Shown here in pieces: positions 28,257 to 28,996 of a DNA stretch of 64,000 bases. A model generated the notes under the pieces. That model was not told the DNA's origin and ran no database searches. It saw only the letters and a program-made list of their open reading frames with translations. Each line of letters opens with the position of its first letter. The stretch's first letter is position 1. Both the position numbers and the translations under genes were made by a program. The stretch comes from Bacteroidota bacterium (GTDB lineage Bacteria > Bacteroidota > Ignavibacteria > Ignavibacteriales > Ignavibacteriaceae). Where the stretch lies: NCBI GenBank assembly GCA_022708025.1, contig JAKIZM010000007.1, positions 1-64,000 of the forward strand, read 5' to 3'.

Positions 28257-28294
28257 CGCACTAAATTTTGAAAAAGTATTAAAAGATTTAACAT

Positions 28295-28345
28295 CGCGGG
28301 ATGGAGTTCTGATAAATCGGGAGTAGCTCGTATCGGACTCATAAC
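28295..28345 (+). pseudogene. remnant of initiator tRNA, copy 0, with palindrome in the D-loop
   Basis: CGCGGGATGGAG matches the 5' end of the intact tRNA at 28580 with one change. The next six bases (CAATTG in the intact gene) are replaced by TTCTGATAAATCGGGA (28307-28322), a degenerate form of the palindrome at 4322. GTAGCTCG and a weakly matching anticodon arm ending CTCATAAC follow, then similarity stops. It cannot fold as a tRNA. Confidence 0.6.
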
Positions 28346-28368
28346 TGTTAATTGAATAATATTATGAT

Positions 28369-28450
28369 CGCGGGGTGGAGCAATTGGTAGCTCGTCGGGC
28401 TCATAACCCGAAGGTTGTAGGTTCAATCCGCCACGGCGGACTGCCCCAGC
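28369..28450 (+). pseudogene. broken initiator tRNA, copy 1, palindrome replacing the T-arm 3' strand
   Basis: Bases 28369-28426 are identical to the intact tRNA from its first base to the T-loop. After TTCAA, the normal GTC is replaced by the palindrome TCCGCCACGGCGGA (28427-28440). Then CTGCCCC resumes, but the last acceptor bases differ (AGC instead of CGCT), so two acceptor pairs are lost. The upstream flank (AATAATATTATGAT) is also shared with the intact copy, showing a real duplication. Probably not functional. Confidence 0.7.
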
Positions 28451-28570
28451 AAAGACCGGAAATTAATTTATAGCGAAGAGTTTAAGAATAAATCAGAAGC
28501 TATGAAAAGAGAACATTGGTTAAAGAATGGAATTGGTAGGGAGTTCTTAAAGACAGTTTGTAAAAAATAA
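28451..28570 (+). pseudogene. C-terminal fragment of a GIY-YIG endonuclease
   Basis: Forty codons ending TAA at 28568-28570 encode LIYSEEFKNKSEAMKREHWL and then KNGIGREFL, closely matching the last part of the intact GIY-YIG protein at 28699 (LLYKEEFENKSEALKREKWL, then KTGVGREYL). The GIY and YIG motifs and the N-terminal half are missing. It is sandwiched between tRNA copy 1 and the intact tRNA, so this unit repeats the tRNA + GIY-YIG order seen next to it. Confidence 0.8.
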
Positions 28571-28579
28571 TATTATGAT

Positions 28580-28652
28580 CGCGGGGTGGAGCAATTGGTA
28601 GCTCGTCGGGCTCATAACCCGAAGGTTGTAGGTTCAAGTCCTGCCCCCGCTA
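28580..28652 (+). tRNA. initiator tRNA-fMet (CAU)
   Basis: A complete 73-base tRNA cloverleaf. The acceptor CGCGGGG pairs with CCCCGCT except for C1-U72, an unpaired first position that marks initiator tRNAs. The D-arm GAGC/GCTC, anticodon stem TCGGG/CCCGA with loop CTCATAA (anticodon CAU), and T-arm GTAGG/CCTGC with loop TTCAAGT all form. Three G-C pairs next to the anticodon loop (GGG/CCC) are a second initiator hallmark. The discriminator is A; CCA is not encoded. It is the only intact copy in the array. Confidence 0.93.
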
Positions 28653-28659
28653 CTAGGAA

Positions 28660-28690
28660 AATCCTTCTTTTTTAAGAGGGATTTTTTATT
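28660..28690 (+). terminator. terminator after initiator tRNA
   Basis: AATCCTTCTT (from 28660) pairs with AAGAGGGATT (ending 28683) with one wobble, followed by a T-rich run. It separates the tRNA from the GIY-YIG gene. Confidence 0.65.
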
Positions 28691-28698
28691 TTAAAGAT

Positions 28699-28947
28699 AT
28701 GAACTATTATGTATATGTTATAAAAAGCAAAGAAGGATTTACCTATACAGGAATGACAAATGATCTTGAAAAAAGATTAGTTGAACACAATGAAAAGACT
28801 TTATCTTTCTGGACAAAGAGGGGAACAAATTGGGAATTACTTTATAAAGAAGAATTTGAAAATAAGAGTGAAGCACTAAAAAGAGAGAAGTGGCTAAAGA
28901 CAGGTGTGGGTCGTGAATATTTGAAAAAGAATATTAATAAGTTGTAG
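28699..28947 (+). CDS. small GIY-YIG endonuclease domain protein
   Basis: An 82-aa single-domain protein of the UPF0213/YhbQ-like GIY-YIG group. NYYVYVIKSKEGFTYTGMTNDLEKRLVEHN contains the two strands and the catalytic Arg; the late KSEALKREKWLK helix carries the catalytic Glu region. Length is typical for the group. It lies 46 bases after the intact initiator tRNA, and its last codons and stop (AAG TTG TAG) lie within a third tRNA-derived fragment, so tRNA sequence supplies the end of the gene. A fragment of a relative lies on the other side of the tRNA. Whether it acts in DNA repair or as a mobile tRNA-targeting nuclease is unknown. Confidence 0.85.
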   Translation: MNYYVYVIKSKEGFTYTGMTNDLEKRLVEHNEKTLSFWTKRGTNWELLYKEEFENKSEALKREKWLKTGVGREYLKKNINKL

Positions 28948-28996
28948 GTTCCATCCCGACAAAGTCGGGACTGCCCCCGCTCTAGGAAAATCTTTC
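28941..28996 (+). pseudogene. 3' fragment of initiator tRNA, copy 3, with palindrome in the T-arm
   Basis: GTTGTAGGTTC matches the T-arm 5' side of the intact tRNA. The T-loop is then interrupted by the perfect palindrome TCCCGACAAAGTCGGGA (28954-28970), and CTGCCCCCGCT completes the acceptor. The flank TAGGAAAATC-x-TTCT is shared with the sequence just after the intact tRNA. The 5' half is absent. The palindrome occupies the same site as a different one in copy 1. Confidence 0.7.

Follow-up and report, generated by a model that had tools for sequence, protein, structure and literature searches.

Our results point to an undescribed family of selfish elements, each apparently specialised on a single tRNA gene of which the host keeps a working copy. 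Each unit comprises a nuclease gene with a single GIY-YIG domain, encoded on the strand of the tRNA; a complete tRNA borders it on one side and, on the other, a partial copy of that tRNA, in most cases broken up by a short palindrome. Judging from sequence comparisons, we consider it probable that these units make up a phylum-wide family of small homing-endonuclease-like elements dedicated to tRNA genes, with one tRNA gene per lineage (rarely tmRNA), whose nuclease would cleave its target. A full-text literature search, with subscription papers and preprints outside its coverage, retrieved no publication on these arrays or on the family.

The tRNA-fMet/GIY-YIG array in the window

The window, here meaning the whole stretch of 64,000 nucleotides that was analysed, contains at 28294–29004 on the + strand one intact tRNA-fMet, three damaged copies of it, and one intact and one truncated GIY-YIG gene. 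This inventory, made by the original prediction from the letters alone, was borne out by ARAGORN, Rfam and PF01541. The features are as follows.

28294–28347, + strand: decayed 5' piece of tRNA-fMet (about nt 1–40), its D-loop replaced by the decayed palindrome TTCTGATAAATCGGGAG (28307–28323); by its sequence an old scar
28355–28426, + strand: copy 2, upstream flank plus tRNA-fMet nt 1–58; exact 72-bp duplicate of 28566–28637
28427–28440, + strand: palindrome TCCGCCACGGCGGA in place of nt 59–61 (T-loop) of copy 2 (sequence and palindrome search)
28441–28450, + strand: 3' part of the copy 2 tRNA, nt 62–71, with one mismatch (sequence)
28454–28570, + strand: GIY-YIG C-terminal fragment, approximately residues 45–77 of the intact protein, 67% identity
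28580–28653, + strand: intact tRNA-fMet (CAT) (ARAGORN; Rfam RF00005, 63.7 bits)
28654–28690, + strand: 3' flank of the tRNA with a terminator-like hairpin; its first part recurs at 28982–29004
28699–28947, + strand: intact GIY-YIG nuclease gene, 82 aa (PF01541, E 9.5e-15); last codons and stop lie in a tRNA fragment
28940–28952, + strand: tRNA-fMet 3' fragment, nt about 46–56, overlapping the GIY-YIG stop
28954–28970, + strand: palindrome TCCCGACAAAGTCGGGA at the T-loop position (junction and palindrome analysis)
28971–28981, + strand: tRNA-fMet 3' fragment, nt 62–72 (tRNA-fragment mapping)
28982–29004, + strand: second copy of the 3' flank of the intact tRNA, 83% identical

Further details of the prediction were also seen. 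A damaged copy (copy 2) together with its upstream flank duplicates nt 1–58 of the intact tRNA and its flank exactly, the intact GIY-YIG ORF ends with AAG TTG TAG (28939–28947) contributed by the tRNA 3' piece, and the flank CTAGGAAAATC is present twice, at 28653 and again at 28982 after the tRNA fragment. Moreover, ARAGORN and Rfam both report a second tRNA-like copy at 28368–28441 whose T-arm is disrupted. All three damaged copies contain short palindromes, namely TCCGCCACGGCGGA, TCCCGACAAAGTCGGGA and the decayed TTCTGATAAATCGGGAG. The orthologous position in congener G004 holds a counterpart of the piece at 28294, with GTCCCAATAAATCGGGAG, and G009 has clean versions of this type of scar, with TCCCGATAAATCGGGA; on these comparisons the piece is an old scar common to the window and G004. 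The Rfam matches in 28000–29300 were to tRNA only, and no group I intron RNA was found around the ORF. The GIY-YIG gene is placed between the complete tRNA and a partial copy and inside neither of them, unlike an intron ORF.

The window protein consists of a single GIY-YIG domain. The catalytic residues (Y6, Y16, G18, R26 and E63) are invariant in 21 diverse members, which places the family in the GIY-YIG superfamily. The best PDB profile matches are 1zg2 (9e-14) and 1ywl (8e-13), both of UPF0213 (BH0048, EF2693), and the fold of the AlphaFold model (pLDDT 82) matches the same two structures, followed by Slx1. The nuclease domain of the family is best read from the model as being of the Slx1/UPF0213 type. 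A survey of the superfamily in 2006 assigned 1zg2 and 1ywl to the Slx1 family and called its stand-alone prokaryotic members minimal (PMC1564403); the searched passages of that survey do not mention tRNA arrays. The window protein shares its minimal domain with the UPF0213 or stand-alone Slx1-like family (PMC1564403), but no tRNA was present within 1.5 kb of the eleven homologues examined from outside Bacteroidota (Clostridia, Nitrospirota and relatives, Rickettsiales, Ezakiella). Neither the domain search nor the model revealed a separate DNA-binding domain next to the nuclease domain. If specificity for tRNA genes is true, this nuclease would, at 82 aa, be very small for an enzyme with sequence or structure specificity. 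The fMet clade is under purifying selection, with a mean pN of 0.26, a mean pS of 0.82 and a median dN/dS of 0.15 among unsaturated pairs.

Distribution of the unit and palindromes in the partial tRNA copies

The original prediction had held that only the initiator tRNA is affected. This is wrong, because copies of tRNA-Glu, tRNA-Ser and tRNA-Ala are also affected in the same genome, which contains eight GIY-YIG matches. At the tRNA-Glu locus (L008), tandem units of a truncated tRNA-Glu plus a GIY-YIG gene lie upstream of an intact tRNA-Glu, and at L002 a GIY-YIG gene is located between an intact tRNA-Ser and a tRNA-Ser piece interrupted by a hairpin. At L226 the upstream tRNA-Ala copy has its anticodon arm replaced by TCCCGATTGTATCGGGA, with no adjacent GIY-YIG gene. 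In addition, one and the same insert of 22 nt in the T-loop, TCCCAAAGGGATTCCTTCGGAA, interrupts both a tRNA-Glu copy of the window's genome (G000; L008, 1434–1480) and a tRNA-Val copy of congener G003 (L053, after the tRNA-Val at 1913), and the tRNA bases are all retained in both.

Other tRNA genes followed by small GIY-YIG genes, for which a search had been proposed, were found both in this genome and across the phylum. In fact, homologues are present in 51 of the 59 genomes of the order and in 189 of the 296 genomes sampled across the phylum. The usual layout, seen at most examined loci, is an intact tRNA, a same-strand GIY-YIG gene of about 82 aa and a partial copy of the same tRNA. Within the order, 58 of 101 GIY-YIG ORFs (77 loci) lie at most 300 bp from an intact tRNA, and all 58 are on the tRNA strand. 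A random gene-sized stretch of the window's genome lies near an intact tRNA in 1.7% of cases (0.8% on the same strand), and the observed proximity is far above chance. A tRNA, a tmRNA or a tRNA fragment adjoins 77 of 96 distinct proteins. Two layouts can be distinguished. In the first, the intact tRNA comes before the GIY-YIG gene and a 3' fragment comes after it (fMet, Asn, Asp, Cys, Pro, Ala). In the second, the GIY-YIG gene has a 5' fragment upstream and the intact tRNA downstream (many Ser, Leu and Arg, and Glu). The targets comprise at least 11 isotypes plus tmRNA, the latter affected in two genomes. Outside the order, 31 of the 35 fetched loci are at a tRNA, and two of the four exceptions (L167, L194) contain palindrome-scarred tRNA pieces when read.

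Regular tandem arrays occur in single-contig genomes, with five 450-bp units at tRNA-Leu in G024 and five 315-bp units at tRNA-Asp in G006. These arrays strongly support the earlier view that the tRNA + GIY-YIG unit has been repeatedly duplicated, and duplication driven by the nuclease is the reading that we favour. The genome of the window is a 117-contig draft, which would be compatible with an assembly artefact, but the probability of such an artefact is negligible, and it was ruled out because tandem arrays occur in single-contig genomes and the same architecture is repeated there and in independently assembled records.

A palindrome with a perfect stem of at least 5 bp was found at 70 of the 83 junctions inside partial tRNA copies, versus 11% in shuffled inserts, and its typical form is TCC...GGA. 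The interrupted position is constant for each tRNA across genera while the palindrome varies: Asp is interrupted at 50|59 in five genera, Cys at 38|57 in four, and fMet at 58|62, the junction of copy 2, in four genera besides that of the window, each with other palindromes. Pairwise comparisons of aligned stem positions gave 26 double, still-paired changes, 34 one-sided changes and 200 unchanged positions; because of the 26 double changes, it may be suggested that some pairing has been retained through sequence change. The proposal that palindromes always lie in tRNA loops finds weak support, since 80 of 120 junction ends are in loops versus 68 expected under uniform placement. A general abundance of palindromes in the window's genome was rejected (density 1.08 versus 1.05 per kb in a Markov control). 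The enrichment is limited to the GC-rich TCC..GGA kind, with 34 TCCCG..CGGGA palindromes versus 0 for the reversed pattern. Larger, dispersed REP-like hairpins also carry such palindromes in their loop, as in GTCACCCTGAGCGTGCCTG-TCCCGTCTGCGGGA-TCGAAGGGTGAC (L235–L240; window 20397–20410 and 46719–46775). Palindrome-scarred tRNA-fMet copies, several of them in tandem, lie beside an intact tRNA at L132, L140, L144 and L147, with no GIY-YIG gene nearby.

Another reading takes the palindromes themselves as the mobile units and the GIY-YIG protein as their mobiliser, a counterpart of REP/RAYT, in which a Slx1-like structure-specific nuclease would insert or template palindromes at DNA hairpins such as tRNA arms and REP loops. 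We regard it as unlikely, although much of the evidence above agrees with it: the high proportion of junctions with a palindrome and their mostly TCC...GGA form, the 34 TCCCG..CGGGA palindromes against none reversed, several of which lie in other hairpins of dispersed repeats, the palindrome-scarred tRNA copies without a nuclease gene, the nearest folds (UPF0213 and Slx1), and a sister clade of the protein located amid dispersed palindromes. However, the loop preference of the junction ends is slight, and the match between protein lineage and tRNA isotype described below is not explained by this reading alone.

Target fidelity, mobility and a candidate mechanism

On the maximum-likelihood protein tree of the order (60 loci, 19 labels), the tRNA label changes 22 times, versus a mean of 43.8 and a minimum of 38 after shuffling, while the genus label changes 53 times. 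On the phylum-wide tree (93 loci, 25 labels), the target label changes 36 times (shuffled 72.5, minimum 66) and the host-family label 46 times (shuffled 51, minimum 45). By these counts it is the target tRNA, and not the host, that the protein lineages follow, and the host-family signal is almost nil. The Leu clade covers families f1, f2, f29, f30 and f35, and the Ser(gga) clade covers f1, f2, f3, f5 and f14; the tree has 86 columns and many weak forks, and therefore single branches are not to be over-read. The original interpretation, right about duplication and mistaken about the initiator tRNA, had missed both this lineage-target match and the palindromes.

The KorC-orf89-tRNA-fMet site is orthologous in the genus and beyond, and was found in three states. 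G000, G005, G008 and G024 have the occupied site and G001, G002 and G028 a clean one, while the site of G003, G004, G006, G009 and G016 shows a scar but no nuclease gene. Relatives with the same tRNA and no GIY-YIG neighbour had been named in advance as evidence against the prediction; the three clean genomes are such relatives, yet empty sites are expected of a mobile element. The window protein shares 68% identity with that of congener G005 (KorC 88%), and 77%, 76% and 75% with those of the other genera G013, G007 and G008 (KorC 62%, 63% and 68%, respectively); identity to proteins of other families is 71–73%. GIY-YIG identity is, on these values, uncoupled from host identity. Purely vertical descent of each tRNA/GIY-YIG pair is contradicted by the uncoupled identities and the label-change counts, and the comparisons show horizontal spread with fidelity to one target. 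Part of this fidelity could come from homology-driven exchange instead of enzyme specificity. Scans of viral contigs with two family members as queries gave no phage or virus vehicle, and phage and plasmid matches are distant, with at most 44% identity among the matches listed.

These data bear on passive recombination, in which unequal crossing-over would duplicate tRNA genes and trap the GIY-YIG gene between the copies as a passenger, without nuclease-driven mobility. The tandem units, the exact 72-bp repeat and the microhomology at tRNA ends are as it would predict, but it leaves unexplained why the same passenger gene is found at 31 of 35 loci outside the order, as well as the target-specific lineages, the purifying selection and the identity uncoupled from the host. 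We hold it to be quite improbable.

In the homing-like model that we prefer, the nuclease would cut the tRNA gene to which it is dedicated, or a structure that this gene forms, and repair from an occupied donor would copy the element into the cut site. Because the element would carry the missing tRNA half, one complete tRNA would be rebuilt and the host would survive, while the left-over half-site would be marked or disabled by a palindrome. Recutting, or unequal recombination between tRNA copies, may then give tandem arrays, and decay of the nuclease gene would leave scars such as the piece at 28294. The model as a whole appears rather probable to us, being consistent with the recurrent architecture, the target-tracking tree, the mixed alleles, the uncoupled identities, the purifying selection and the single-contig arrays. 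The unchanged intact tRNA, the lack of a separate DNA-binding domain, the nuclease-free scars and the failure of the scans to find a viral vehicle speak against it. The partial copy is disrupted by a palindrome, but the complete tRNA-fMet is identical in occupied and empty genomes; therefore self-protection of the classical kind, through a disrupted target, is not evident, and recoding of the intact tRNA to escape cutting was not seen. The enzyme would have to tolerate its own intact tRNA, cut it only seldom, or tell it apart in some other way. A bolder claim is possible, if doubtful: that a minimal Slx1-like nuclease on tRNA (and some structured-RNA) genes, which writes self-complementary palindromes, duplicates its target while keeping one working copy, and moves within the phylum with one lineage per isoacceptor, constitutes a categorically new mobile class.

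A host or defence function on tRNA as RNA seems very unlikely; in this reading the protein would be a nuclease or processing factor for the tRNA of one isoacceptor, and the array would provide extra or decoy tRNA. Most extra tRNA copies are broken and for this reason unable to supply tRNA, and patchy presence at orthologous sites with decay to scars fits a selfish element better. The lineage-tRNA match at the anticodon level would suit such a function, as would the same-strand position directly after tRNAs, which would permit read-through expression; to our knowledge, no GIY-YIG enzyme has been shown to cut tRNA. Also in its favour, tRNA amplification driven by SegB is reported to counter tRNA-cutting defence in phage T6 (PMC13096335).

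Related systems and GIY-YIG genes at other sites

By analogy of behaviour, the nearest described relative is SegB of phages T4 and T6. This free-standing homing endonuclease of the GIY-YIG kind, carried by T-even phages, is found close to tRNAs of many isotypes, and it causes a segment that contains tRNA to be amplified; its authors left open how it keeps from cleaving the locus in which it resides (PMC13096335). Like the present family, it combines a GIY-YIG gene beside tRNA genes with the absence of an intron, several isotypes and amplification of tRNA units. Unlike the present family, with its one tRNA per lineage, SegB is phage-borne, and the consulted parts of that report describe neither an isotype preference nor palindrome-scarred partial tRNA copies (PMC13096335). 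T-even SegB is absent among the phage matches listed for the window protein. The present elements are likened to free-standing homing-endonuclease-like elements by their presumed working mode and not as proven members, a separate DNA-binding domain being absent.

Some integrative elements insert in a tRNA gene and carry a 3' end that restores the target. They share with the present family the insertion in a tRNA gene, the supply of the missing part and the complete tRNA that remains, but the present family has no integrase, its cargo is a single 82-aa nuclease gene, its left-over copy is disrupted by a palindrome, and it is amplified in tandem. REP sequences with RAYT transposases likewise tie short palindromes to a single nuclease gene; RAYTs are HUH enzymes, whereas the present nuclease is of the GIY-YIG kind and its palindromes lie inside partial tRNA copies.

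The family provides a large number of natural pairs of nuclease and target, matched at the level of isoacceptors. Its targets are essential genes, often present in a single copy, in which a homing endonuclease should kill the cell, and this raises the testable question of how a selfish nuclease may use an essential and invariant target and yet leave its host alive. The family would also account for scarred tRNA pseudogenes in Bacteroidota genomes, would parallel in bacteria the tRNA amplification driven by SegB, and might explain where short palindromic repeats come from.

GIY-YIG genes are also found away from tRNAs. In the window's genome, those of L003, L004 and L007 are without a tRNA and form a separate clade, L003 and L004 lying amid dispersed palindromic repeats. 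This separate type, located amid dispersed repeats and not tRNAs, also includes L203 of the isolate Hanstruepera ponticola. A sister clade away from tRNAs is represented by L081, L082 and L085 (G033) and by L066 and L067 (G006). At L081 and L082 an integrase gene of the integron type, identified by eye in the reading frame, seems to be interrupted by the GIY-YIG gene, with inverted repeats GCCCGTGAGATA..TATCTCACGGGC at the sides, and at L066 inverted repeats CCCCGTCAAATA..TATTTGACGGGG flank the gene. At L188 (350–1072) a GIY-YIG gene runs up to the 5' end of a gene for RNase P RNA (RF00010, 157.8 bits), surrounded by the inverted repeat CCCCGCACATAACATTTA..TAAATGTTATGTGCGGGG. Finally, at L195 (700–1350) the GIY-YIG gene lies between a partial 5' copy, with the palindrome GGGATTTATCCC, and the intact start of an apparent dTDP-glucose dehydratase gene, which is the tRNA-type architecture at a protein-coding gene.
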